From Acidimicrobiaceae bacterium (GTDB lineage Bacteria; Actinomycetota; Acidimicrobiia; Acidimicrobiales; Ilumatobacteraceae), in NCBI GenBank assembly GCA_947467375.1, contig CANIHL010000005.1, forward strand, positions 1-44,940: a DNA stretch of 44,940 nt. The letters run 5' to 3'. Positions 2,712-27,606 of this stretch are shown piece after piece. How positions within the stretch are numbered: position 1 is the stretch's first letter; each line of letters begins with the position of its first letter. The notes beneath the pieces were generated by a model. That model ran no database searches and was not told the DNA's origin. It saw nothing but the letters and a program-made list of their open reading frames with translations. Made by a program: the position numbers and the translations under genes.

Positions 2712-3380
2712 ATGAAAAATTTTCCTGCAATTTCCACATTTGTCGTCATCATTTTATTGATTTGGCGAAGTCGGAAAAACGCCAAGAAATCTGGAAAAAC
2801 ATCGAAAAAGTCTGTACAAAAACGTGATATCCCAATGATTGATTCTGAAATTACCGCGATTACCGATGAGATCGATTTCTTTTCAACGTACAAAGATCAT
2901 GATGTTGCGCATGCAACCGACTCAATCGTGTTGCAGAAAGACGAGCACCTGCTAGCTGCGGTGATTGGGGTTGGGTTTGTAGAAAACAAGACAACTGAAG
3001 ACGGTGTATCTCCATTCCTGCTTGATGAAGGCGAATTCATCATCACCACTGTGCGAGGTGTGTTTGTAGGAAAAACTATGACTCATGATTTTCAATGGAC
3101 CAAACTTATTTCGCATAAATCAGAAACGGTGACGGAAGATGTCAATATGGTCACGTATCTCCCAGTCAGTAACAGACAAAAGATTTATGGCATCGCTACA
3201 GATATTGCTACCAATGGCACGCTTCAAAAAAGATTGAGTTTTGGTGTCGCGGTCGCGCTGGGACGGCAAGAGCAACATATCGACGGACTAAAGGCAGAGC
3301 GCGAGAAATTGACACAAGAAAAGCAGCAATTGGCATTAGGTTCGGCTGGTGGCTCTGGGTTTGAGAAAGAGCAAAGCTAG
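2712..3380 (+). CDS. Hypothetical protein with N-terminal membrane segment
   Basis: 222-aa ORF; N-terminal hydrophobic ISTFVVIILLIW then basic residues; no family recognised. Confidence 0.5.
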   Translation: MKNFPAISTFVVIILLIWRSRKNAKKSGKTSKKSVQKRDIPMIDSEITAITDEIDFFSTYKDHDVAHATDSIVLQKDEHLLAAVIGVGFVENKTTEDGVSPFLLDEGEFIITTVRGVFVGKTMTHDFQWTKLISHKSETVTEDVNMVTYLPVSNRQKIYGIATDIATNGTLQKRLSFGVAVALGRQEQHIDGLKAEREKLTQEKQQLALGSAGGSGFEKEQS

Positions 3381-3406
3381 AACGCTAGGCTCTTGCAGGA
3401 AATAGC

Positions 3407-3453
<47 letters not shown>

Positions 3454-7069: not shown

Positions 7070-7876
7070 TTAGTCGTGGATTGAGCCATCTGGCATTGTT
7101 GCGCCAGTGAGAATAGCGCCAGTCAGATTTGCACCACTTAGGTTTGCGCCACTCAAGTTGGTTTGCCTCAGGACTGCACCACTCAGGTCTGCGCCCCATA
7201 GATTTGCACCACTTAGGTTTGCGCCACTCAAGTTTGTGCTAGTCAGGATTGCACTATTCAGATTTGCACCACTTAGGTTTGCACCACTCAGGACTGCACC
7301 ACGCAGGTCTGCGCCACGCAAGTTGGTTTCCATCAGGACTATGCCAGCCAGGTTTGCGCCACTCAAGTTTGCGCCAGTGAGAATAGCGCTAGTCAGGTTT
7401 GCACCACTTAGGTTTGCGCCACTCAAGTTGGTTTCTATCACTTCTATGCCAGCCAGGTTTGCGCCAGTCAGATTTGCACCACTTAGGTTTGCGCCACTCA
7501 GGACTGCACCCAGATTTGCACCACTCAGGTTTGCGCCACTCAAGTTTGTGTTAGTCAGGATTGCACTATTCAGATTTGCACCAGTTAGGTTTGCGCCACT
7601 CAAGTTGGTTTCCATCAGGACTATGCCAGCCAGGTTTGCGCCAGTCAGATTTGCTTCAATCAGGACTGCACCACTTAGGTCTGCACAACTCAAGTCTGCG
7701 TAGTTGAGTACTGCGCCAGTCAGATCAGCTCCAGGCGCAATCGTGTAGCCATCCACAACCTTTTCAGACTGATTGCATGTAGTCAACTCATTCGTAGCGG
7801 TTGACTCGGATGTTGCTCCACAAGCCGATAAAGCGAAAAGAACTAAACAGGAAATAGCTACCTTTGTTTTGCGCAT
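7070..7876 (-). CDS. Pentapeptide-repeat lipoprotein
   Basis: Lipobox LSAC, then near-uninterrupted NLSGA/NLTGA repeats; C-terminus TGATMPDGSIHD. Confidence 0.9.
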   Translation of the reverse strand: MRKTKVAISCLVLFALSACGATSESTATNELTTCNQSEKVVDGYTIAPGADLTGAVLNYADLSCADLSGAVLIEANLTGANLAGIVLMETNLSGANLTGANLNSAILTNTNLSGANLSGANLGAVLSGANLSGANLTGANLAGIEVIETNLSGANLSGANLTSAILTGANLSGANLAGIVLMETNLRGADLRGAVLSGANLSGANLNSAILTSTNLSGANLSGANLWGADLSGAVLRQTNLSGANLSGANLTGAILTGATMPDGSIHD

Positions 7877-8474: not shown

Positions 8475-8530
<56 letters not shown>

Positions 8531-8556: not shown

Positions 8557-8620
8557 AGCCTGATTGGGTTTGAGCCTGTTTCTCGCCGTTCACGTCAGGG
8601 GTCTTTCGCGTTTTGTGCTT

Positions 8621-8637
8621 CTCCTTATATATAGGAG
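8621..8637 (+). promoter_or_regulatory. Hairpin overlapping the ribosome-binding site of the integrase gene
   Basis: CTCCT-TATATAT-AGGAG; AGGAG lies 8 nt before ATG 8646. Confidence 0.5.
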
Positions 8638-8645
8638 TAAACGTG

Positions 8646-9419
8646 ATGAAACAGCTTGTTGATGAATTTACTGCCGATTGGCTTCTCGCACAGCGAGCAA
8701 AAACAACCATAAAAATGTATGCGTCCTACCTTGGAAACCTTTTTGCGATTCATGAAGACCCAACTTTTGTGCAAACGAAACAATGGATTGGGTTGACAGA
8801 TTCTCCATCAGTGCGTCGAAAGAAAAGCCAAGCGGTTCGCGCATTTGGGAAGTGGGCGCAACTTAATGGGATTGACGTTTTTGGTTGGTGGAAAGCGGTT
8901 CCCGTTGCTAAGGAAGGAGTTTCACCACAGTTGACCGTGACCGAAGAAATGTATGTCGAAGCAAAACTGAAGGTAACAACAGCCCGTGACCAGGCATTGA
9001 TTGAAGTCCTGTGGTCTTCGGGTTTGCGTCGTAGTGAAATCGCTCGTCTCAATGTTGAAGACATCAATTTCGTAGAGGGTTTCCTTGTAATTCGACAAAC
9101 CAAAACTGGGAATCCAAGAATTGCCCCAATTTCTCCAACGGCTCGACGCGCGTTAATTAAGCATCTTGGGAAAAGAGGCGAAGGTTCGGTATTCAAACTC
9201 AATTCCAATTCAATTCGCATTCGTCTGCGACGCTTAGGTTTGCCATCTGCACATGCATGGCGTCGGGGTTGGGCGGTGCACTCGTTACGAAGCGGTGTTT
9301 CAGAAGTCTCAGTCCGCTCTGCTGCGGGTTGGTCAAGTGGAACAATGGTTGCTCGTTATACCAAGGCACTATCAGGTGAGTTAGCCGTAGAAGAGTTTCA
9401 TCGAAGCTGGCTGATGTAG
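8646..9419 (+). CDS. Tyrosine recombinase/integrase
   Basis: Candidate catalytic residues: R in SSGLRRSEIARL, K in RQTKTGNPR, HxxR in HAWRRG, W in AGWSSGT, Y in ARYTKA. Confidence 0.9.
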   Translation: MKQLVDEFTADWLLAQRAKTTIKMYASYLGNLFAIHEDPTFVQTKQWIGLTDSPSVRRKKSQAVRAFGKWAQLNGIDVFGWWKAVPVAKEGVSPQLTVTEEMYVEAKLKVTTARDQALIEVLWSSGLRRSEIARLNVEDINFVEGFLVIRQTKTGNPRIAPISPTARRALIKHLGKRGEGSVFKLNSNSIRIRLRRLGLPSAHAWRRGWAVHSLRSGVSEVSVRSAAGWSSGTMVARYTKALSGELAVEEFHRSWLM

Positions 9420-9501: not shown

Positions 9502-10374
9502 ATGGCTGATGTACCAAATTTGAATGAGAGCAACGAAAATTCCTGGACAACTTCAGTTGTGGAAGTTGCTTCAGGAGATATCGAAGCAAAGTCACAGAGA
9601 ATTGTAAAAGTTGCAATTCTTGTTTCGGTATTTTCACTACTTGTTGCCGGTTTTTCACTCCTAAAGACTCAGAGTGTTGAATCAAAATCATCGGGTTTGA
9701 TTGCCGACCCTGCCAACACAGAAGGTATTGACCTTTTTCAACCACCAAAAGACCTCCCAAGTTTTATTGCAACAGTTGAAGAATCAGTCGTTGCTATCGA
9801 GTGCGAAGGAAACGAAGAGGGAATATGGACTTATGGAACTGGTTTCGTCGCAGCATTTGAGCCCGAAACCGATGGTTTCGAGTCGGTCATAGTCACGAAC
9901 CATCATGTGATTGAAGATTGTATTGATTCTGGCAACGAACTAATCGTGCTAACCGGCGCTGACCAAACTGGAGCACCTCGTGTAAATCTTCTTCGATGGG
10001 ATGAGGAAAATGACCTCGCAGTAATCGAAGTCGATGAACTTCTTCCAGGCCTAGTTTCAGCCGAAACCTTTGCGTCGCGTGGTTGGTGGTCCATGGCTAT
10101 TGGGAATCCGCTTGAAACAGATTTTGAAGAAACTATTGTCCTTTACAACTCAACAACCTTTGGCTACATCTCCTATGTATTAGATGGAAAGTGGAATTAC
10201 ACATCAGCCACCATTAATGGGGGGAATTCTGGAGGACCTTTGGTTAACAGCAGGGGAGAGTTGATTGGCATTAATACTCTTGCTGCAGCAAGTACGGAGG
10301 GTGGAGTTTGGAACATTGCAGTCGATTCAGACATCTTGTGCGAAAAGATTTTCACCGATTGTGCCACTGACTAA
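9502..10374 (+). CDS. Membrane-anchored trypsin-like serine protease
   Basis: TM VAILVSVFSLLVAGFSLL; triad-like H in VTNHHVIEDC, D in ENDLAVIEVD, S in NGGNSGGPLV. Confidence 0.85.
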   Translation: MADVPNLNESNENSWTTSVVEVASGDIEAKSQRIVKVAILVSVFSLLVAGFSLLKTQSVESKSSGLIADPANTEGIDLFQPPKDLPSFIATVEESVVAIECEGNEEGIWTYGTGFVAAFEPETDGFESVIVTNHHVIEDCIDSGNELIVLTGADQTGAPRVNLLRWDEENDLAVIEVDELLPGLVSAETFASRGWWSMAIGNPLETDFEETIVLYNSTTFGYISYVLDGKWNYTSATINGGNSGGPLVNSRGELIGINTLAAASTEGGVWNIAVDSDILCEKIFTDCATD

Positions 10375-11312: not shown

Positions 11313-11510
11313 ATGAATGAAGAAGAACTCATCACTCGACTCGAAACAGAATTAAAGGCAACACCGAATCAAACTGCGAGACAGTTAGCACGTACCATCG
11401 GAGCACCAAAAACTGTGCTCAATCCACTTCTATACAGAATTGAGAAATTCGTGCAAGATGGTTCAAAACGTCCTCTCTGGAGATTAAAAGAGAGTCCAGA
11501 GAGTAACTAG
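11313..11510 (+). CDS. Small winged-helix protein, Z-alpha-like
   Basis: TARQLARTIGAPKTVLNPLLYRIEKFVQDGSKRPLWRL aligns by eye with human ADAR1 Z-alpha [41 protein letters not shown]. Confidence 0.55.
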   Translation: MNEEELITRLETELKATPNQTARQLARTIGAPKTVLNPLLYRIEKFVQDGSKRPLWRLKESPESN

Positions 11511-11536
11511 TAAACCCTCAATCAAGAAATTCCTGA

Positions 11537-12196
11537 ATGATGGTCGAAAATCAGAAAGCTCAAAAGAGTAAAGGAACGCCATACAACTTGTTTGTTGTTG
11601 AGCTGAAGGAACTTAAAGGCCGAAGTGCTGATAAGCCACACCTATACGTAACATTGACTTCGTCAACTACCAAACTTGCATTTCGCCGACTTCTTGAAGG
11701 CAAAGGTCCAACTTGGGTGCAGGGCAAAGTCGAAAAACTTAGAACTGACCTGATACCTAACTATCGCGAGACGAACAATAGGGAGGTAGCAGAAAAGCGT
11801 CTCGGAAAGTTAAAAATTGACTTATCAAAACAGGGTTTCGGCGTAAATGGTGACTCGACTGTATGGGTCGTGTATGTACTTGACATTGACCCAAATATTG
11901 AACCAAAGATTCTTGACTTAGGGAAAAAAGGGAAAGCAATTTACGTCGGTCAAACGTCAACAACCAGGGAACTTCGTGCTGAACAACACGCTGGAAAACC
12001 AAGTAAATCAGGAAAGCACATTGGTTCACGAAAAACCAAAGGAAGAAACCCGGTCCTTAATCTGCATTTGAGTCCCACAAAAGAGATGTATACAAAAGAA
12101 GACGCGCTTGCCTTTGAGACAGAGACCCACAAGAGGTTGGAGGAAATGGGTTACAGAGTGCTTGGGGATGTTCAAGATGGCAACAAAAGTGACTAA
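11537..12196 (+). CDS. GIY-YIG nuclease-like protein
   Basis: VWVVYVLD, KAIYVGQTSTTRELRAEQH and ALAFETETHKRLEEMGYRV fit the GIY-YIG layout. Confidence 0.6.
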   Translation: MMVENQKAQKSKGTPYNLFVVELKELKGRSADKPHLYVTLTSSTTKLAFRRLLEGKGPTWVQGKVEKLRTDLIPNYRETNNREVAEKRLGKLKIDLSKQGFGVNGDSTVWVVYVLDIDPNIEPKILDLGKKGKAIYVGQTSTTRELRAEQHAGKPSKSGKHIGSRKTKGRNPVLNLHLSPTKEMYTKEDALAFETETHKRLEEMGYRVLGDVQDGNKSD

Positions 12197-12271: not shown

Positions 12272-15200
12272 ATGACTATTTCGCTGAAGGGTAAAAGTAA
12301 AATTGCGTGGGTTCGTCCGGACGGATGTCCTGCCGGATTCGAGCCATCCGAGGTTGTCGTTGGTAATAGCGACGTTGGAGGGATGGCTCTTGAAATCGCC
12401 ATTACTAAATGGTCCAAGAATGAACCTCCTACTCGTGAGGCGCTCACACGTCTTCATACTCTTCGAACCAATAAGCGAGCAACGCCTGTTGTCTTGGTCG
12501 TCGAGTTTGATGGCGGCGGAACTCTCGTCTTTGGTCCTAATACTGCTTCTGCTCCAGTTGGCCCACTACCGATAGAGCAGACCCAACGTGTAGTCCAAGC
12601 AGCGCTCGATGAGCCAACAGTTATTGCGGCGCGTAATCGACTAGCTGGACTAGTGCAATCGATTGATTCAACATCAATGCCAGGAGTGAAGAACTCTGGA
12701 CTATTCGCAAATCATGAACTTCGTGTTGGTGTACCTCAGCGTGCAGATTGGGCTGATGCATGTACTGCATCATCTCCGATGTTGCCACTTAAAGGTAAAG
12801 AATTAATTGAAAAACTTGGTTTCCAAACTGGTCAATTCGGAGCGCACGCATTATTGCTAACGGGAGATGGACCCAAAGCAGAAGCAATTGCTGTCTTGCT
12901 CGATGACCGAGAAGCTTTCGATGCAGATTCACCTCGCTTTACGGTGTCGCCAGTCGCTTATGGATTGAACATGGCAGAAAAGCAGGGTGTCCCATGGCTC
13001 ATCATGGTGCGCGGTAGCCAGATTCGCCTCTATTCATCACGTAAAGATTTTGGTGTCGGTCGCAAAGGCTTAGCTGAAACTTTCTTTGAAGTTGACTTGC
13101 CGCAACTCACAGCCTCAAATTCCGGCTATTTGCAACTCATATTTTCGGCCAAGGCACTAGCGGAGGGTGGCACAACCTATGAGATTTTGAAGTCAAGCAC
13201 GCAGTACGCAGTTGCGCTCGGTGAACGATTGCGCGACAAGGTGTATGAGGAAATCATCCCTGAACTTTCTGTGTCCGTTGCAGATGCCTTAGTCGAAAAT
13301 GGTTATGAAATGGATGCCGCGGGCTTGGACCTCGCGTACCAGCTAACACTTCGAGTGTTTTTCCGCATGTTGTTCCAGGTGTATGCAGAAGACCGGAAGC
13401 TACTTCCATACGGTGAAAACACGAAGTACGACCGAAACGCTATAAAAACTGTTGCCAAAGACCTTGCTGAAAATCCTGAACAGATTTTTGACGAAAACTC
13501 CACATCACTTTGGGATGACTTGGCCCAAGTATGGCGAGTTATTGATTCGGGTGATAAAGCCTGGGGTGTTCCTGCCTATAACGGTGGTCTGTTCGCAAGC
13601 GATTCAGAGCTAAGCGAGCACGGAGCAATTCTTAAAGATGTACATATAACTAATGATGTGATGGGCCCGGTCCTTAGGGCGTTGTTACTCGACGATTCAG
13701 ACGATGGCACTATTGGTCCAGTTGACTTCCGTTCGCTGAGTGTGCGCGAATTCGGAACCATTTACGAAGGACTTCTTGAATCAAGTCTTGGCCTTGCTGA
13801 GGTTGATTTAACTCTTGACGAAGATGGAACTTGGATTCCAGCGAAGAAGAAAGACGAAATCTACGCTGAAGCTGGTCAGGTGTACTTCCATAACACCAGC
13901 GGCCAACGCAAAGGCACTGGCTCTTACTTCACCCCTTCGTTTGTGGTCGAACATCTTCTTGAACGTTCACTTGACCCTGCTCTCGACTCGCATCTTGCTC
14001 AAGTTGCGGAACTCATGCAGAAAGGCGACCACGCAGGAGCGGCAGAAAAGTTCTTTGACTTCCGCGTCGCAGACCTCGCTATGGGCTCAGGACATTTCCT
14101 TACATCTGCCATCGACCACATTGAACAAAAAATGGCGGCGTTCTTGGCAGAAGATGGTCAATCTATTCCTGGTGTTGCAGCTGAGTTGCTAAAACTGGAA
14201 AACGCAGCTCAAGAAGCACTTGGCGAAGATTCTGTTGAACTTGAACGCTCATCACTTTTGAGGCGTCAAATTGCACGTCGCTGCATATATGGACTCGACA
14301 TCAACCCAATTGCTGTTGAACTCGCACGTGTTTCAATTTGGATTCACACATTCGTTCGTGGGCTTCCAATGTCAAGCCTCGACCACAATCTTGTCTGCGC
14401 GAACAGCCTTACTGGAATTGGAAGCGTCGATGAAGCGTTAGATGTGCTCGTTCCTGGTCGCAAGGGTCAAATGACATTGTTTGATGAGCCAATTGAGAGA
14501 GCGCTCGAAAGTGCACGGACAGTTTTGGTCGATGCTGCACTTCTTGCCGAAGCGACTAAAGACGAAACACGCGCAGCATCACGAGCGGCAAAGAAAGCTT
14601 ACAAAGATGCCGAAAAAGCACGTTTGCTTTTTGATGCAGCTGTGCTGAACCGAATTGGCCGTTCTGGCCTCGTAGCAGCAGTGGACCCTGATGCAATCGC
14701 AAAGCTTGCTGCAATGCCTATTGCGCAGGAAGCGATATCTCCGTTGAAACCGGCTCACATGCCAGCACTATTTCCAGAAGTATTCCTCAGGGAGAATGGA
14801 GGATTTGACGTTCTTGTTGGTAATCCACCGTGGGAAGAAATAATGGTGGAAGAACCAAAGTATTGGCTACGTGCTCAGCCTGGCCTTTTAGGTATGAATG
14901 CTGCAGACCTGAAAGCAGCAATAGTTTCGTTGCGCAAGAAGCGTCCGGAACTTCTTGCTGGGCTTGAAATTGAAATTGAAATTGCAGCAAATATTCGGAA
15001 AGTCCTTTTGGCTGGTCCATTCCCAGGATTAGGCACTGGGGATATCGACCTATATCGCGTGTTTGCTTGGCGGAATTGGCAATTGTTGCGCTCAGGAGGT
15101 CGTTTAGGAGCCGTGTTTCCAAGAACGCTGCTGAACGCGGCTGGGAATGCGCCATGGCGTGAGATTGTGCTTAGCAATGGCGAAGTAAGTGTTGTAAACA

Positions 15201-16303
15201 TCGTGAACTCAAACGGTTGGGTGTTTCCAAGTGTGCATGGTCAGTATTCAATTACGTTCATTGACATCCACAAAACAGATTCAAGCCCAGAAACAGTTCA
15301 ACTCAGTGGACCTTTCTTTGAATACAAAACTTTCGATGAGGGCAGACATCAAAGTGGTGCGCTACCAATTGCACTTTTAAAAACTGCTTCAGAGGGGGCG
15401 TCGTTTCCACAATTGCCCGACGTCGAATCTGCATCAATATTCACGCAGATTCGGCTCGCGCCGCGCTTGAACGACCCACGGCATCCTTCTTTTAGACCTG
15501 TAAGAGAGTTTGATGCAACTAATGACAGACCAACTTTTGATGCTGGACCACAGAAGGAAGGACGATGGCCAGTTCTTGGTGGTTCAGGCTTCAATCTTTG
15601 GGAACCTAACACCGGTGATGTTTACGCGTGGGCTGAACCTAAAAAAGTAATCGCAGTACTTCAGGAGAAAAGGCAACGCCAAATTCGATTGAAAAGTTCA
15701 GCATTCTTTGGAATGGATGAAACCTGGGCTGCGAATCCAGATACTCTGCCATGCAGCGGAGTAAGAATTGCATTTAGGGACATTACTAATGCGACAAACA
15801 CCCGAACTTGTATAGCGGCCCTTCTTCCTTCAGAAGTCATCCTGACAAATAAGGCACCATATTTGCTTCGAAACGATTGCACGAGTGGCGAAGAGGCATA
15901 CCTGCTCGGCGTGCTTTGCAGCATTCCACTTGACTGGTATGCGAGACGTTACGTCGAACTGAGCATGAACCTGCATATTTTTAATGGATTGCCAATTCCG
16001 CTAGTTGATGAAAATGATTCAAGAAGATTGAGAATAATTCAAATTGCAGGAATGCTTGCAGCGGTTGATAACCGATATGCGACTTGGGCAAAAGAAGTAG
16101 GAGTCAAGGTTGGCTCAGTCAAAACTGATTCCGAGAAAGACGCGTTAATCGCAGAAACCGATGCGCTCGCAGCTCATTTATACGGACTGTCCCGGTCCCA
16201 GTTGGAACACGTTTTCAAAACCTTTCACCGAGGTTGGGATTATTCCTCACGTTTGACACAGGTCCTTTCGTTTTATGACCAGCTACCGGAAGTGAAGTCA
16301 TGA
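12272..16303 (+). CDS. Eco57I-type N6-adenine DNA methyltransferase, large restriction-modification-like protein
   Basis: GSYFTPSFVVEHLLERSLDP, motif I FRVADLAMGSGHFLTSAID, motif IV FDVLVGNPPWEE; long N-terminal region. Confidence 0.85.
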   Translation: MTISLKGKSKIAWVRPDGCPAGFEPSEVVVGNSDVGGMALEIAITKWSKNEPPTREALTRLHTLRTNKRATPVVLVVEFDGGGTLVFGPNTASAPVGPLPIEQTQRVVQAALDEPTVIAARNRLAGLVQSIDSTSMPGVKNSGLFANHELRVGVPQRADWADACTASSPMLPLKGKELIEKLGFQTGQFGAHALLLTGDGPKAEAIAVLLDDREAFDADSPRFTVSPVAYGLNMAEKQGVPWLIMVRGSQIRLYSSRKDFGVGRKGLAETFFEVDLPQLTASNSGYLQLIFSAKALAEGGTTYEILKSSTQYAVALGERLRDKVYEEIIPELSVSVADALVENGYEMDAAGLDLAYQLTLRVFFRMLFQVYAEDRKLLPYGENTKYDRNAIKTVAKDLAENPEQIFDENSTSLWDDLAQVWRVIDSGDKAWGVPAYNGGLFASDSELSEHGAILKDVHITNDVMGPVLRALLLDDSDDGTIGPVDFRSLSVREFGTIYEGLLESSLGLAEVDLTLDEDGTWIPAKKKDEIYAEAGQVYFHNTSGQRKGTGSYFTPSFVVEHLLERSLDPALDSHLAQVAELMQKGDHAGAAEKFFDFRVADLAMGSGHFLTSAIDHIEQKMAAFLAEDGQSIPGVAAELLKLENAAQEALGEDSVELERSSLLRRQIARRCIYGLDINPIAVELARVSIWIHTFVRGLPMSSLDHNLVCANSLTGIGSVDEALDVLVPGRKGQMTLFDEPIERALESARTVLVDAALLAEATKDETRAASRAAKKAYKDAEKARLLFDAAVLNRIGRSGLVAAVDPDAIAKLAAMPIAQEAISPLKPAHMPALFPEVFLRENGGFDVLVGNPPWEEIMVEEPKYWLRAQPGLLGMNAADLKAAIVSLRKKRPELLAGLEIEIEIAANIRKVLLAGPFPGLGTGDIDLYRVFAWRNWQLLRSGGRLGAVFPRTLLNAAGNAPWREIVLSNGEVSVVNIVNSNGWVFPSVHGQYSITFIDIHKTDSSPETVQLSGPFFEYKTFDEGRHQSGALPIALLKTASEGASFPQLPDVESASIFTQIRLAPRLNDPRHPSFRPVREFDATNDRPTFDAGPQKEGRWPVLGGSGFNLWEPNTGDVYAWAEPKKVIAVLQEKRQRQIRLKSSAFFGMDETWAANPDTLPCSGVRIAFRDITNATNTRTCIAALLPSEVILTNKAPYLLRNDCTSGEEAYLLGVLCSIPLDWYARRYVELSMNLHIFNGLPIPLVDENDSRRLRIIQIAGMLAAVDNRYATWAKEVGVKVGSVKTDSEKDALIAETDALAAHLYGLSRSQLEHVFKTFHRGWDYSSRLTQVLSFYDQLPEVKS

Positions 16304-19300
16304 CAGACAGCAAGCCCTTTCCACCAGTCTTTGCAACGAATAACCCAAACACTGGGGAGACTGTTGCGGCCGAAGTGAATCGGATGATGAAGGGTTTGCG
16401 TGAGGAACTTGCGCAGCCACCGAATTTGGCTCTTGCTACCGCTTACATCAACCCTCAAGGGTTTGCGCTTATTGCTGACGAAGTGGAGCAGGCACCGCGA
16501 GTACGAATTTTGTTGGGTGCTGAACCCGATGAGCCATTGCAACGAAGAATTGATTCAGGTGAGGATGTTTCCTTTGAACAGGTCGCGCTGGATTATGAAA
16601 ATGGTTTGAAGCGTGAACGTGACTTGGTTGGTTTTGATGCGGAGTCTGATGCAGCTGCGAAGCATTTGGTGAAATGGCTTCGTTTCGCTGAAGTGGGGGA
16701 ACCTCCACGTGTTGAGGTACGACGTTTTACAAAAGGATTCCTGCACGGGAAGGCATTTATTGCTGAGCATCCGCGTATGCCTGCCGTATTGGCTGGTTCT
16801 TCGAACCTGACACTCGCTGGTCTGTCCTTGAATCGCGAGTTGAATCTTGGTTATCCGTCAGGTCAGTACACCGAGCTAGTGGTTGGCTGGTTTAACGACT
16901 TGTGGGACCAAGCAGAGTCTTTCGACCTAGCAGCAATGTACGAGGCCAGGTGGAGCGAACATTCACCATGGGTTGTGTTTCTACGAATGCTGTACGAACT
17001 GTATGGTAACCAATCAAATGTCTCGGATGAGCGAATTGAACTTAATGTCACCGAATTCCAAAGGGATGGAATTATTCGCTCAATGCGAATCCTCGACGAG
17101 CTTGGCGGTGTCCTTGTTTGTGATGAAGTTGGATTAGGTAAAACCTTTATTGCTGGCGAAATAATTCGTAAAGTTTCTCAAGAAAATCGACAGAAAGTAT
17201 TAGTCGTTGCACCAGCGTCTTTGCGTAATTCGATGTGGGAACCGTTTTTGAAGCGGTTTGATTTTTCGCGCCGTGTTGAACTTGTTACATATGACGATTT
17301 GAGAATTGGAACTAAGGCCGAAGTTCAAAACTTTGATGATTATGCGATGGTGGTTATTGATGAAGCGCATAACTTGCGGAATGCCAAGACGCAACGAGCC
17401 TCAGCTGTCATTACTTTGTTGGGCGGAGAACATCCCAAGAAAGTAATTTTGCTTACAGCAACGCCTGTCAATAACTCTCTATGGGATTTAGAGACCTTGG
17501 TGAAATATTTTGTCAAGAATGATGCTCAATTCTTGGCTGACGGAATACCAAGTATTGAGGATTACATCAGACGGGCACAAGCGTTAGACCCTGAAACTCT
17601 TTCTCCTGAGCACCTATTCAGTTTGATGGACAAGGTCGCTGTTCGACGTACGCGCCGATTTATTAAGAAGGAATACGCAAATGATTTCATCACCAACAAC
17701 CAGGGTGAACTAGTACCTATCGAGTTTCCCACTCCTTCCGTGCATCGTTTGACTTATGACTTGGATATTGACTCAGATGACATTGTTGGCCGAGTAATTC
17801 ATGCACTTGCTGTAAGTGAAGATGAAAATCTTGTTATTCGAGCCGGTACGCATCGTGACCCATCACGTTTATCGCTAGCGCGCTATGCGCCAAGCGTTTA
17901 TCTGAAAACCAATGATGTTGACCATCTGCAAATCACCAACGTGGGATTGTTGCGGTCAGGACTTCTGAAACGACTTGAGTCATCAACAGCAGCACTCGTC
18001 GCTACTTTGACTCGACTGATTGCCTCTCACCAGGCGTTCATCAAAGGAATCGATGCGGGCTATGTGATTACGGGTGACACACTGCGCGATTATGTAAGCA
18101 GCGAATCTGATGACCTAAACGAATTCTTGGACCTACTTGATGAAGTTTCGGCTGACGAAGTTAAAGACATCAAGGACTTTGACGGACAGGCACTAAAACG
18201 AGACGTAGAACTCGACCTCGTACTGCTCAAAGAGCTAGTTGAGCTGGCAAAGAAGCGCCAGAAGCAAGGTCCGGATTCAAAAGTTGAAGAATTGCTAGCT
18301 CACCTGTCTGAGATTGCTGAAGAAGCTGAACGCCCAGACAAACATGGTTTATCGAGTGAAGACCGTCGCAAAGTAATCATCTTTTCGACTTACACCGACA
18401 CTGTTGAAGACCTCTCTAACCAAGTCGTGGATGCAGTTAACAAAGCTAAGAAAGGCTCGCCGCTCGCTGCATATAAAGGACGAATCGCACCACCAGTTGC
18501 TGGCGCACAGGGAAGTACCGCCCAAACGGAGAGGGCCGAAATTCTTGCCGGTTTTGCACCGATAACAGCAGGAAAAATCGGCGAGAACGGCGTTCCTGAA
18601 TCGAAGAACGTATTCGATGTGCTCATCACCACTGATGTGTTGGCAGAAGGCGTGAACCTCCAACAAGCTGGTCGAATGGTCAACTTTGACCTTCCATGGA
18701 ACCCAATGCGACTAGTCCAACGCCATGGCCGCATCGACCGAATTGGTAGCCCGCACAAGAAAGTTGTCATTGGCTGTTTCTTTCCAGCAGAGAACCTTGA
18801 CACTTTGCTGAAACTCGAAGAAACCTTGCAACGCAAAATCGCGTATGCCAATGCCGCGATAGGAACTGGAACGGTAATTCCGGACCAAAAATCTGACCCA
18901 AATCGTGAAGTCTTATTTAAGGACAACACTCAAGACATCAAGAACATCTACAACGAGGACGCATCGCTTCTCCTAGAAGCTGGTGGCAGTGGGGCATTAT
19001 CAGGTGAAGAATATCGACGCCGCTTAGGCAGGGCAATGCAAGGGGCATACCCACGCGAAGATGTTCTTAATCTGCCGTACGGCTCGGGTAGCGGCTTTGT
19101 CTCGACAAAGATTCGACAATCAGGATTCGTATTCTGCGTAAAAGTTGGAAATCATAAAGCACCATGGTTCAGATTCGTAGCTGCAGACAGCACTAGCTGG
19201 ACGCCATTAAACAAGGCCGACGGCTCACCTTGGATTGATGATGACACCTTGACCTGCCTTATCGCAGCAGACCCAGGTGAACGTGAAGAGACTCAAGTGA

Positions 19301-19716
19301 TACCTGAAGCAGCACTCAAGACAGTTTTTGAGGCCTGGTCAAAAGCGCGCCAAGACGTTCACCAAGAATGGTCAAAACTCACAGACTGGGCAAACTTGGA
19401 ACCACAAGTTCCAAAAGCCCTGCGAACCGCCATTGACCTTGTGCTGGAACATGGCCACAAGCTTTCTCAAGAAGAACAAGGCGATTTAATCAATCGACTC
19501 AATGGGCGTTGGGAACATGCGATTGTGAAGTCTGTGCGTGACATCCTCCGCGAAGAGACAGCTAGTGATATCGAGAAGGTTGGACTGTTGCAGAGGTTTG
19601 TTAAGGATGCAGGTCTTCCACTTCCAGTGAAGCCTGAGCCATTGCCAGCAGTGCGTATAGATGACATTCGCGTTGTTTGTTGGATGGCTGTGACTGCAGC
19701 TGCGCCAGTCCTTTGA
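16300..19716 (+). CDS. PLD-like nuclease domain fused to SNF2-family helicase
   Basis: PLD-like FLHGKAFIAEHPRMPAVLAGSSNLT; helicase motifs CDEVGLGKT, VVIDEAHNLRN, LLTATPVNNS, FDLPWNPMRLVQRHGRIDRIG; ATGA overlap with the methylase. Confidence 0.9.
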   Translation: MTDSKPFPPVFATNNPNTGETVAAEVNRMMKGLREELAQPPNLALATAYINPQGFALIADEVEQAPRVRILLGAEPDEPLQRRIDSGEDVSFEQVALDYENGLKRERDLVGFDAESDAAAKHLVKWLRFAEVGEPPRVEVRRFTKGFLHGKAFIAEHPRMPAVLAGSSNLTLAGLSLNRELNLGYPSGQYTELVVGWFNDLWDQAESFDLAAMYEARWSEHSPWVVFLRMLYELYGNQSNVSDERIELNVTEFQRDGIIRSMRILDELGGVLVCDEVGLGKTFIAGEIIRKVSQENRQKVLVVAPASLRNSMWEPFLKRFDFSRRVELVTYDDLRIGTKAEVQNFDDYAMVVIDEAHNLRNAKTQRASAVITLLGGEHPKKVILLTATPVNNSLWDLETLVKYFVKNDAQFLADGIPSIEDYIRRAQALDPETLSPEHLFSLMDKVAVRRTRRFIKKEYANDFITNNQGELVPIEFPTPSVHRLTYDLDIDSDDIVGRVIHALAVSEDENLVIRAGTHRDPSRLSLARYAPSVYLKTNDVDHLQITNVGLLRSGLLKRLESSTAALVATLTRLIASHQAFIKGIDAGYVITGDTLRDYVSSESDDLNEFLDLLDEVSADEVKDIKDFDGQALKRDVELDLVLLKELVELAKKRQKQGPDSKVEELLAHLSEIAEEAERPDKHGLSSEDRRKVIIFSTYTDTVEDLSNQVVDAVNKAKKGSPLAAYKGRIAPPVAGAQGSTAQTERAEILAGFAPITAGKIGENGVPESKNVFDVLITTDVLAEGVNLQQAGRMVNFDLPWNPMRLVQRHGRIDRIGSPHKKVVIGCFFPAENLDTLLKLEETLQRKIAYANAAIGTGTVIPDQKSDPNREVLFKDNTQDIKNIYNEDASLLLEAGGSGALSGEEYRRRLGRAMQGAYPREDVLNLPYGSGSGFVSTKIRQSGFVFCVKVGNHKAPWFRFVAADSTSWTPLNKADGSPWIDDDTLTCLIAADPGEREETQVIPEAALKTVFEAWSKARQDVHQEWSKLTDWANLEPQVPKALRTAIDLVLEHGHKLSQEEQGDLINRLNGRWEHAIVKSVRDILREETASDIEKVGLLQRFVKDAGLPLPVKPEPLPAVRIDDIRVVCWMAVTAAAPVL

Positions 19717-19976: not shown

Positions 19977-20822
19977 ATGGAGATAAATGGATACCAAATA
20001 GGGCCAAAAGCCGAGCTCCACTGTGCTGAACTAGCAGATGAGAATCTTTTCTTGGCAAACCTGGCAGAAGCCAATCTCAGTCGAGCAAATTTGTACTTAT
20101 CTGTACTCGGCGGAGCAAACCTCTATTTAGCTGATTTATCAGACGCCAACTTAAGTTTTGCTGAATTGAATATGTCGAACCTCTGTATGGCGAACTTGAG
20201 TAAAGCGAATCTGTCTAACGCTGATATGGATTCAGCCAATCTCAGTAAGTGCAATTTGACGAATGCAAATTTGACAGAAGCGATAGGTGCAAGTAGTAAT
20301 TTCTCGCTTTCAAATATGGTCGATTCAAATCTGGCGAAGTCAATTTTTACAAAGTGTAATTTTGCTGATGCAAATATGGATGGAAGTAATTTATCCGGCG
20401 CTACTTTAGGGTTTTCGAATTTTACGAACGCGACTTTAATGAATACAAATCTGAGTCACGCGTACGTGGCTTACGTTAATTTCTCAGAAGCGAATCTAAC
20501 GGGCAGTAATCTAAGAGAATCATTGTGTAGTGGTGCAAACTTCACTCGAGCTACTGCGCAGAACACACGGTGGTCCAAGAGCGATTTGACATTTACGATA
20601 TTTGTTCAAGCAAATTTGATGGACTCAGATTTTGCAGGAACTGACTTCACAAACTCGAATCTTTCTGAGGCAAATCTCACGAATGCAAATTTGACGGGAG
20701 CCAATTTTCAGGAAGCGATTCTTGCCCATGCAAATCTTCGTGGCGCAAACATCTCAGGTGTTAATTTTGATGAAGCTGTATTGACAGGCGCAACAATGCC
20801 AGATGGGTCAACACACGACTGA
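19977..20822 (+). CDS. Cytoplasmic pentapeptide-repeat protein
   Basis: No signal peptide; ANLSRANLYLSVLGGANLYLADL-type repeats; C-terminus TGATMPDGSTHD. Confidence 0.85.
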   Translation: MEINGYQIGPKAELHCAELADENLFLANLAEANLSRANLYLSVLGGANLYLADLSDANLSFAELNMSNLCMANLSKANLSNADMDSANLSKCNLTNANLTEAIGASSNFSLSNMVDSNLAKSIFTKCNFADANMDGSNLSGATLGFSNFTNATLMNTNLSHAYVAYVNFSEANLTGSNLRESLCSGANFTRATAQNTRWSKSDLTFTIFVQANLMDSDFAGTDFTNSNLSEANLTNANLTGANFQEAILAHANLRGANISGVNFDEAVLTGATMPDGSTHD

Positions 20823-24731: not shown

Positions 24732-27392
24732 ATGTACGTGGGAATTGAAATAGCACCTTATTTTGAATTTAGAACGGTCCAAATAGAGGCACGCGGTGGT
24801 CAAAACATTTGGTTAACCATTGAAGATGGGCTATCTGTTGTTTATGGACTAAACGGAACAGGAAAAACTACAGTGATTGATGGAATCAATCGACTGTTGA
24901 AGAGCAATTTAGACATTGAAATTGAAAAAGTAAACGGTAGAAATCTTGAATTTCAGCCTGGCAAGACTCGCGGATATTTTGGGTTTCCTGTCTCTCCTGT
25001 TTTATGCGAAATGGCACATGACGTCTATTTCGATTACAACCCGCAAGGTCTGGTGGCGCCATATAGGCGCGGGTTAAATCTAGAAAAACTTGGACTTCCA
25101 ATAGAGCGACTTGAAGACGACAAACAAGAATCAATCGTGAGGTTCAAATCTTGGTATCTGGATGAGTGGCTCGAAGAAAAGACACCTGAAAAGGCTAAGG
25201 AAGCTCGAGAATTAGGAAACTTGCGAGCAGTTTTCAATGAACGAACTGATTCATCCGATTCAGACAGTGACCGTGAAAAGCCCGTTACCGAGGAATTTTT
25301 AAATCTTGCTGTAGGTCTGCTGCTTGATGAAGCCGTGGATAGACAAGGCCACGCGTTTTTTAGTCCTTTCTCTACCATCTGTGAATTCATCGATAACCTT
25401 CGCACATCCATAAGTGACAAATTCACTAATTGGGAATTTTCAAAACCTAATCCAGATTATGCAAATGAATTAGGTCGCAAATATGGGATTGAGTTTGGAT
25501 TTGATGAATCCACTTTTTCTGATAGAGGGTTTGAAGGCAGCACAAGTTCGGAGCTTCTAGAGTTATACCTCTATCTACTTATTGAGAAATTTCACAGCGT
25601 CATTTCTAGAAAGATTGATGATGAAGAATGGTTTACAGACGATGATAAATGTAGTGAAGTTATCGGCAAGGGACTGCTGATTAGTGATTTAATACAAGAC
25701 ATATCTCGAATAGGGAAAATCGTTTTTGCGGCAATTCAAGAGTCGCTGTTTACTCCAGTGTTCTGGTTTGAGCCATCGAATAGGTGGAAGGAAAGTCGAA
25801 GATATGGCCTTTCACTGGACCTGTCGCTAGGTGTAGATGCCGGGAAAAAGCTCATTGAATTCAAAGAACTATTGAATGAGATTAAAACCTCCTTCGCATC
25901 TGAGGAGAACCAAGTTCAAAACAGCGCTCTGTTTCACGTGCTGCATGAATCAAATCTATTTACGCTGAACGATTTTGAAAGATTTGACAGTTTTGAAAAC
26001 GATTGGCCTTACATAAACATTGATTACGTAGAAGGAATTGGAGAATTAGAGGATTTCCCGGTAAGCATTGTCGATATTGCTCAACCGATTGATTTTGAGT
26101 CGGTGGCACAGAGCACGCTTTCTCGATTGATTACTGGCGAAGGCATAGAAGCCTCTTTCAGTTTGAATGGTTATCTCCGTGAAGCTGTCGTCGAGATACC
26201 CGATATCAACCTGGTGAAGGAATTCATGGATAGAGTCACAAACTTCCTGGTGAAATTAGATATCGGAATCATTCGATGCAGGTTTGAGTATTCAGAGGAT
26301 TTAGGCAAGTGGGTTAATGGGAGAGCTGCGGAATTTGTTTTTGAAACAGTTTCTACAAGAATGGGCGAACTTGAATATGGGATTCCATTTTCGCGATTAA
26401 GTGCCGCCCAACAGTATTGGACCCAAGCAGCATTTTGGCTAGTTTCTGCTGGCTCTTTAGATGATGCCTTCTTAGTTACGGCTGATGAGCCAGAAAGCGG
26501 ACTTCACGAAAGAGCGGTAATTCAGGTTTTTAACGAACTTTCGAAAACGAATTCTCCTTGTATCGTCACGTCGCATTCATCGAGGGCGTTGCGCCTTCCG
26601 AATGCAAAACTTTTACATCTTGAACGCACGATGGATGGTCGACTGTTGCTCGGAAGACCTTGGTTGGGCGATGATGTTGCGGCAGCCGCAGAGCGCTTAG
26701 GAACAACGACTTTCGACCTATTTGCGTTAAAGCGAGCTCTTGTGATTGTTGAAGGTTCTCATGACGTTGAGGTAGTTAAAGGCCTTGCTTCATTGCGGGT
26801 TGACGGAGCGTTACTTGACCAGTTGTTAATTGTTCCTGCACGGGGAGTGAAGAACGTTGCAACCGTTGCCGATTCGGTGGTAATTACAGAATTTACAAGT
26901 TTGCATGTGCTTGCAATCACTGATAATGGAAGAGCAGAAAAGCTAAAAGATTTCGTTTCGAAGGCTAGTGATGCCTTGCAAAATGGGGCTTCACCTGGGC
27001 AGGCGATAGCAATTTCAGGAATTAGAGAAGTCGATAGAGAAGCCACTTTTGAAGAGCGTGTAATGCATGATTTGATTGAGCGAGCGATACATCGCAGCAT
27101 GCTCCACCGCTTACACATTTACGCCTTACCTGCACAAGACATAGTCGACCTATTGCCTGAAAAATCGTTTGGTTTAGAAGGAACTTGGGATGAGTTGCGA
27201 GATGAGCATCGCAGCTTCCCTGTAAGAATGAGTTTCAAAGACTGGTTGAGACAGGAAAAGGGTGTCTCGGTGTCTGTGAAGAGTGTTAGAAAGGCATTCG
27301 ATTCGATAGATGCGCTCAGTGCGCCATTGCAAGAGATTCTGAATGAATTAGAAATAGTCTCATCTCTTAGCCCTCTCGAAGGGAACCAGTAG
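24732..27392 (+). CDS. OLD-like ATPase/TOPRIM nuclease
   Basis: Walker A VVYGLNGTGKTT, Walker B AFLVTADEPESGLH, VTSHSS, TOPRIM-like LVIVEGSHDVEVVKGL and VLAITDNGRAEKL. Confidence 0.75.
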   Translation: MYVGIEIAPYFEFRTVQIEARGGQNIWLTIEDGLSVVYGLNGTGKTTVIDGINRLLKSNLDIEIEKVNGRNLEFQPGKTRGYFGFPVSPVLCEMAHDVYFDYNPQGLVAPYRRGLNLEKLGLPIERLEDDKQESIVRFKSWYLDEWLEEKTPEKAKEARELGNLRAVFNERTDSSDSDSDREKPVTEEFLNLAVGLLLDEAVDRQGHAFFSPFSTICEFIDNLRTSISDKFTNWEFSKPNPDYANELGRKYGIEFGFDESTFSDRGFEGSTSSELLELYLYLLIEKFHSVISRKIDDEEWFTDDDKCSEVIGKGLLISDLIQDISRIGKIVFAAIQESLFTPVFWFEPSNRWKESRRYGLSLDLSLGVDAGKKLIEFKELLNEIKTSFASEENQVQNSALFHVLHESNLFTLNDFERFDSFENDWPYINIDYVEGIGELEDFPVSIVDIAQPIDFESVAQSTLSRLITGEGIEASFSLNGYLREAVVEIPDINLVKEFMDRVTNFLVKLDIGIIRCRFEYSEDLGKWVNGRAAEFVFETVSTRMGELEYGIPFSRLSAAQQYWTQAAFWLVSAGSLDDAFLVTADEPESGLHERAVIQVFNELSKTNSPCIVTSHSSRALRLPNAKLLHLERTMDGRLLLGRPWLGDDVAAAAERLGTTTFDLFALKRALVIVEGSHDVEVVKGLASLRVDGALLDQLLIVPARGVKNVATVADSVVITEFTSLHVLAITDNGRAEKLKDFVSKASDALQNGASPGQAIAISGIREVDREATFEERVMHDLIERAIHRSMLHRLHIYALPAQDIVDLLPEKSFGLEGTWDELRDEHRSFPVRMSFKDWLRQEKGVSVSVKSVRKAFDSIDALSAPLQEILNELEIVSSLSPLEGNQ

Positions 27393-27510: not shown

Positions 27511-27583
<73 letters not shown>

Positions 27584-27606
27584 CAATCATGGGGGAGAAC
27601 TAGTTC

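Follow-up and report, generated by a model that had tools for sequence, protein, structure and literature searches.

A conserved DNA methylase and PLD nuclease-SNF2 helicase gene pair that apparently forms an unnamed two-gene system

Two overlapping genes in a 44,940-nucleotide stretch of an Acidimicrobiaceae genome (contig CANIHL010000005.1; hereafter the window) encode an N6-adenine DNA methylase (MT) and a PLD nuclease fused to an SNF2 helicase (HEL). The pair appears to be a real, conserved two-gene system without an existing name. Its domain logic and context suggest a function in defence, in which the pair probably marks the DNA of its host cell and destroys unmarked invaders. PADLOC models the methylase only, as a lone Type IIG enzyme. 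If correct, the recognition of the pair as one minimal unit would add a compact ATP-dependent restriction system, with a PLD nuclease fused to an SNF2 motor, that spans several bacterial phyla and the haloarchaea.

Table 1. Features of the module and its surrounding island in the window
Feature	Position	Strand	Description and basis
tRNA-Ala 5' part, 47-bp copy	3407-3453		Exact repeat
tRNA-Ala 5' part, 56-bp copy	8475-8530	+	Left end of the 19-kb segment with the module; exact repeat
Phage-type integrase of the island	8613-9419	+	PF00589, 68 bits
MT	12272-16303	+	1343-aa N6-adenine DNA methylase: degenerate N-terminal domain, Eco57I/PglX-type methyltransferase core, C-terminal recognition domain; ORF, Pfam, PADLOC, AlphaFold2 and fold matches
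MT residues ~146-275	12707-13096	+	Nuclease-like fold without a conserved catalytic ExK, predicted inactive; AlphaFold2 (pLDDT 94), weak PD-(D/E)XK matches, residue conservation
MT residues ~1099-1338	15566-16285	+	C-terminal recognition domain
HEL	16300-19716	+	PLD nuclease and SNF2 helicase in one 1138-aa chain
HEL residues 149-180	16744-16839	+	PLD/HKD half-site (H149, K151, N169, E180); invariant in alignment
Intact tRNA-Ala(GGC)	27511-27584	+	Right island end; ARAGORN, repeat and empty-site comparison

The two genes and their motifs

The first-pass annotation had described a compact module of a methylase and a fused PLD-helicase without DrmA, DrmB or DrmC, and the open reading frames, the motifs and scans of neighbouring genes bore this out. 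Both frames had been placed correctly and overlap by ATGA (Table 1). MT contains the methylase motifs read earlier, with DLAMGSGHFL as motif I and NPPW as motif IV; it matched the Pfam family Eco57I at 59.7 bits (cut-off 25.3). HEL contains the PLD half-site HGK...GSSN...ELN together with a complete set of SNF2 motifs; Helicase_C and SNF2-rel_dom exceeded their Pfam cut-offs, and the match to PLDc_2 was sub-threshold (24.0 against 27). In an alignment of nine sequences, comprising HEL and relatives, the PLD residues H149, K151, N169 and E180 were invariant, as were the Walker A motif (G278-T282), DEAH (354-357) and QRHGRIDR (807-814). The catalytic quartet of the nuclease BfiI consists of His, Lys, Asn and Glu, and a single HKD half-site in HEL, completed by dimerisation, is therefore the expected state. 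The PLD domains of SauUSI (PMC7913695) and CglI (PMC5737866) are likewise half-sites that are completed on dimerisation.

Conservation and spread of the pair

Named genomes were scanned for HEL with a nine-row alignment as the query, which retrieved 80 loci; a plain protein query retrieved none. One full HEL relative was found on a viral contig in IMG/VR (L126), where the remaining matches covered helicase motifs only, and its addition gave a set of 81 loci. MT lay directly upstream of HEL on the same strand in all of the 76 loci with enough upstream sequence, with a gap mostly within about 100 bp. Because the loci were retrieved with HEL alone, this pairing does not follow from the way the set was built, and it is far beyond chance. 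A search of the 81 loci for a third conserved gene found none, and no other family was present in more than 8 of them; integrases, HEPN_Swt1 proteins and DUF262/GmrSD-RAMA proteins were sporadic accessories near the pair, each in 4 to 8 of the 81 loci. Among 198 genomes of the order to which the window belongs, 28 had HEL relatives and 25 had MT relatives.

The hosts of the pair included Pseudarthrobacter, Kribbella, Mycobacterium, Streptomyces, Rhodococcus, Actinomadura and Acidimicrobiia, and beyond Actinomycetota also Gemmatimonadota, Chloroflexota and Acidobacteriota. The pair was present on actinobacterial plasmids of Paenarthrobacter aurescens, Rhodococcus erythropolis and Euzebya pacifica, and on haloarchaeal plasmids of Halorubrum lacusprofundi and Halalkalicoccus. 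On all five plasmids the NCBI annotation gave MT as a hypothetical protein and HEL as an SNF2 helicase or helicase-related protein. The first-pass annotation had allowed that the module might prove to be an already named two-gene system; PADLOC 2.0 and NCBIfam 20 contained no such system, and no description of the pair was found in the literature. The PADLOC search it had proposed thus returned no named pair, but MT alone turned out to be catalogued as a putative 'Type IIG' enzyme.

Further genes were seen in some of the loci. Loci L042-L045, from the same taxonomic order as the window, carried a diverged sister pair of about 30% identity, a methylase and an HGK...TSAN helicase, and the system thus seems to have a second lineage. 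One gene family followed directly downstream of HEL in six loci (L052, L053, L057, L068, L079 and L105); the two members scanned, from L053 and L068, were Swt1-like HEPN proteins, possible RNases, and these genes may be candidate backup effectors. An ORF with a RAMA domain lay between MT and HEL in three repeat-bearing loci (L081:7887, L094:8183 and L096:8286), and such ORFs, being adenine-methylase-associated, fit a context of adenine methylation.

Location of the nuclease

AlphaFold2 models were made of MT residues 1-545 (pLDDT 94) and 540-1343 (pLDDT 91) from the sequences of the window and the related loci only. The 540-1343 model matched DNA-bound BrxX (E 6e-15), CamA, M.BseCI and MmeI, and these fold matches spanned the methylase and the recognition domain. 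The 1-545 model had no significant fold match; its weak matches included DrdV and Holliday-junction resolvases, which have PD-(D/E)XK folds. Where the ExK strand was expected, 48 sequences read A-V-A-V-L, and neither a lysine nor ExK was conserved among them. Judged from model and conservation together, the N-terminal domain of MT is most simply taken as a dead nuclease fold; an active nuclease at this position was considered and ruled out on residue conservation. Since the N-terminus of MT has no conserved ExK, the PLD domain of HEL is the only evident nuclease.

The best PADLOC profile for MT was PDLC03620 (REase_MTase_IIG), a full-length match of 810 bits, and the Halorubrum MT scored 804 bits against it. 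MT is therefore a member of this family by full-length match, and it has the Eco57I/N6 methyltransferase with a target recognition domain that is typical of Type IIG enzymes. However, the label denotes a stand-alone enzyme without a partner helicase, and MT has no conserved nuclease residues, so that a methylase and an active nuclease are predicted not to share its chain and the Type IIG label does not hold on that feature. We consider it improbable that MT works by itself as a Type IIG restriction-methylation enzyme, with HEL a mere helper or an unrelated neighbour: such an enzyme would agree with the PADLOC profile and with the weak resemblance of the MT N-terminus to PD-(D/E)XK proteins and DrdV, but not with the missing ExK, the adjacency of HEL to MT in every assessable locus, or the invariant nuclease residues that HEL has of its own.

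Comparison with DISARM and Hma

The module resembles DISARM in ingredients only. Like class 1 DISARM, it combines a methylase, an SNF2 helicase and a PLD protein; class 1 DISARM differs in requiring DrmA and DrmB, in having its PLD protein (DrmC) as a separate gene, and in the clades to which its proteins belong. In a helicase tree including DrmD, as the first-pass annotation had suggested, HEL formed a clade of its own with 100% support, separate from DrmD. A split with full support (SH-aLRT 100) separated nine DrmD and eight HmaA sequences from HEL, its distant sister set (clade B), the C3a139-type helicases and cyanobacterial PLD-SNF2 helicases, although the deep order of this tree is unsure because it is unrooted and has long branches. 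HEL scored 157 bits against the DrmD profile, for which the equivalog cut-off is 610. In the methylase tree, MT and DrmMI also formed separate clades; MT scored 217 bits against the DrmMI profile, over the methyltransferase core only, and true DrmMI proteins score about 1650. Motif IV is NPPF in DrmMI and NPPW in MT.

The absence of a DrmA-, DrmB- or DrmC-like protein, claimed previously, held among the window neighbours scanned. MZB/DUF1998 (PF09369), which marks DrmB, had zero matches in the whole genome of the window, which is 92% complete; in relatives with both HEL and MZB/DUF1998, the latter was encoded on a different contig or at a distance of hundreds of kb. No DrmA or DrmC family was recurrent in the 81 loci. 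In the DISARM loci retrieved, DrmD preceded DrmMI, the reverse of the order here. Membership of DISARM was thus excluded by the separate trees and the absence of DrmB. The earlier interpretation of the module as a reduced or ancestral DISARM, with DrmC fused to DrmD, DrmA and DrmB lost and the DISARM mechanism kept, drew on the shared ingredients, and the partial matches to the DrmD and DrmMI profiles would also suit it. It now seems very improbable, given the separate clades of both proteins, the lack of an N-terminal PLD domain in DrmD, the reversed gene order and a genome without DrmB. The Hma system also has an N6-methylase with an SNF2 helicase, but the HmaA helicases compared here had no PLD motif and belonged to another clade, and HEL scored 101 bits where the best matches of the HmaA profile score about 1200 to 1700.

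Frameshifting repeats in MT of relatives

In many relatives, mainly of Acidimicrobiia, MT was split, and the splits coincided with simple-sequence repeats that severed the C-terminal recognition domain. The short repeat units were polyG/C, CT, AG, CAGC, CCGA and ACCA, and the longer units were CCCAG, CGAGC, GGCAC, GATACTC, GAAGACTC, AGGCCGAC, GTACCGGGAT, GAACACACGG and others; at least 15 different units were present across about 30 relatives (L046-L126, residues ~900-1100). The MT regions (317 kb) held 56 repeats, whereas HEL (271 kb) held 1, 57 in total, and the rest of the loci held 20 in 836 kb. Not one of the 56 MT repeats had a unit that is a multiple of three, compared with 8 of the 20 elsewhere. 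Most lay at one of two places, near residue 967 or from residue 1067 to about 1090, within the linker that leads into the recognition domain; in six loci with six different units, MT broke off at residue 1067 or 1068 and resumed between 1070 and 1089. The loci with repeats did not group together in the HEL tree but occupied two distinct regions of it, and well-supported branches forced at least four label changes. Two near relatives with helicase DNA that was 92.6% identical carried different tracts at the first place (about residue 967), G12 and (GA)17.

The frame states were read from draft assemblies, many of them metagenome-assembled genomes. Of the 24 repeat loci that could be assessed, 22 had MT out of frame and 2 read through in frame, and among the 45 loci free of repeats 43 had an intact MT; these counts are indicative, because the sequences are related, a few genomes are repeated and repeat lengths in drafts are unreliable. 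HEL was intact in all 30 repeat loci, as the eight apparent stops sit at its natural end (26 of these loci came from the repeat count, and four had a tract adjoining an MT that the end of the contig truncates). The MT repeats look like built-in on/off switches. This pattern is a natural experiment that points to dependence of the nuclease on the methylase, and the tracts suggest that uncultured Acidimicrobiia may turn their defence on and off.

A separate C-terminal domain could also be a true specificity subunit, like HsdS, with the repeats as linker relics. Many of the C-terminal ORFs do have start codons of their own and ATGA overlaps with their neighbours; however, the MT units are all non-multiples of three, 2 repeat loci are in frame, and the units turn over between near relatives, so we regard a subunit of this kind as unlikely. 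A fuller account, which is tentative as a whole, is that the pair is a distinct type of two-gene ATP-dependent restriction-modification system that would be phase-variable in many Acidimicrobiia and some Acidobacteriota, with MT turned off or its end swapped through slippage and the MT-dependent HEL expressed without harm meanwhile, and that the diverse repeat units would have arisen repeatedly at the same places before the recognition domain. Loci L036, L032/L090, L108, L109 and L121 carried an additional C-terminal domain in tandem, each with a tract of its own, and these spare domains possibly permit C-terminal switching. MT of the window was searched for such a tract and had only a 6-base unit (14964-14984), which is unable to shift the frame.

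Proposed mechanism and comparison with other systems

We propose that the pair is probably a two-gene ATP-dependent restriction-modification system, in which MT recognises and methylates a site and brings in HEL to cut unmodified DNA. The C-terminal recognition domain would direct MT to a specific DNA site, and MT would add N6-methyl-adenine to the host copies of that site. Where the site is unmethylated, as on incoming DNA, the complex of MT and DNA would engage HEL, the SNF2 motor of HEL would move along the DNA, and a second HEL would complete the PLD half-site, as in BfiI and SauUSI, leading to cleavage. HEL has no evident sequence reader and in this proposal therefore acts only through MT; it may also be that MT recognises and modifies DNA and HEL is not its nuclease partner. 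We infer that MT methylates and recognises a target, that HEL is recruited, translocates and cleaves as a dimer, and that the pair acts against phage, from several lines that back the proposal: the domains, the conserved active-site residues, the strict pairing, the loss of nuclease residues in MT and, in relatives, the repeat-driven disruption of frame in MT but not in HEL. An intact HEL beside a disrupted MT is an argument that HEL works by way of MT, since host DNA would lie open to a HEL that found its own targets once methylation was lost. In phase-variable Type III systems, Res likewise acts through Mod. A HEL that is harmless without MT fits its intact state beside an out-of-frame MT.

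Other known systems share parts of this design. In the Type ISP enzymes LlaGI and LlaBIII, nuclease, helicase, methylase and target recognition domain cooperate from one recognition event, as proposed here. These enzymes are single polypeptides with an Mrr/PD-(D/E)XK nuclease, whereas the present system has two genes and a PLD nuclease. The Type IV enzyme SauUSI has a PLD domain N-terminal to a translocating SF2 ATPase in one chain, with a dimeric active site, but its own C-terminal target recognition domain reads 5mC and it has no methylase partner (PMC7913695). CglI and NgoAVII also combine a PLD nuclease with an SF2 helicase for ATP-dependent cleavage, with one active site per PLD dimer; they differ in having a B3 reader on the nuclease and, as a separate protein, a helicase with a Z1 domain (PMC5737866). 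The Type-2 BREX-related systems have an N6-methylase and an SNF2 helicase fused to HKD, a helicase type that HEL shares as judged by motifs alone, but they also have a DUF499 ATPase and DUF3780 (PMC12839542). Neither was found in Pfam scans of chosen window neighbours, and neither was recurrent in the 81 loci.

A BREX- or Pgl-like exclusion, in which MT marks self and the HEL motor blocks the replication of unmarked phage without systematic cleavage, was weighed against the proposed restriction-modification. The nearest solved fold to MT is that of BrxX/PglX, and restriction by a helicase-like protein without PD-(D/E)XK would be in keeping with it. Invariant PLD residues, on the other hand, are needless in a protein that does not cleave, and no recurrent neighbour of the PglZ or BrxC kind was present in the 81 loci; we therefore judge exclusion of this kind to be a poor candidate.

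Island setting and neighbouring genes

The 5' part of tRNA-Ala occurs three times as a direct repeat in the window, and these copies delimit two adjacent integrated segments (Table 1). In a genome of the same genus (G186) the site is empty, and the left flank (3378-3406) is joined directly to tRNA-Ala; MT and HEL relatives were absent from the same-genus genome in the order sample. GC inside the island is lower than to its right. The tRNA-Ala copies, the integrase, the empty site and the GC indicate that the module is cargo of an integrative island. The copies retain the 5' part of the tRNA gene, not the usual 3' part.

The module is closely preceded, on its own strand, by a winged-helix-like ORF and a gene for a GIY-YIG protein (11313-12196). 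The GIY-YIG gene was considered as a third component and rejected, as the first 20 relative loci had no homologue; none was found in the 197 other genomes of the order either. The same island encodes an AAA ATPase of 886 aa (24732-27392), which has weak matches of the AriA/GajA/AbiLi type and is possibly the product of a second defence gene. The integrated segments also encode pentapeptide-repeat proteins at 7070-7876 (- strand) and 19977-20822 (+ strand), the latter just downstream of HEL, and beside the integrase a trypsin-like serine protease (9502-10374) weakly matches the protease half of RT-Protease_XI.
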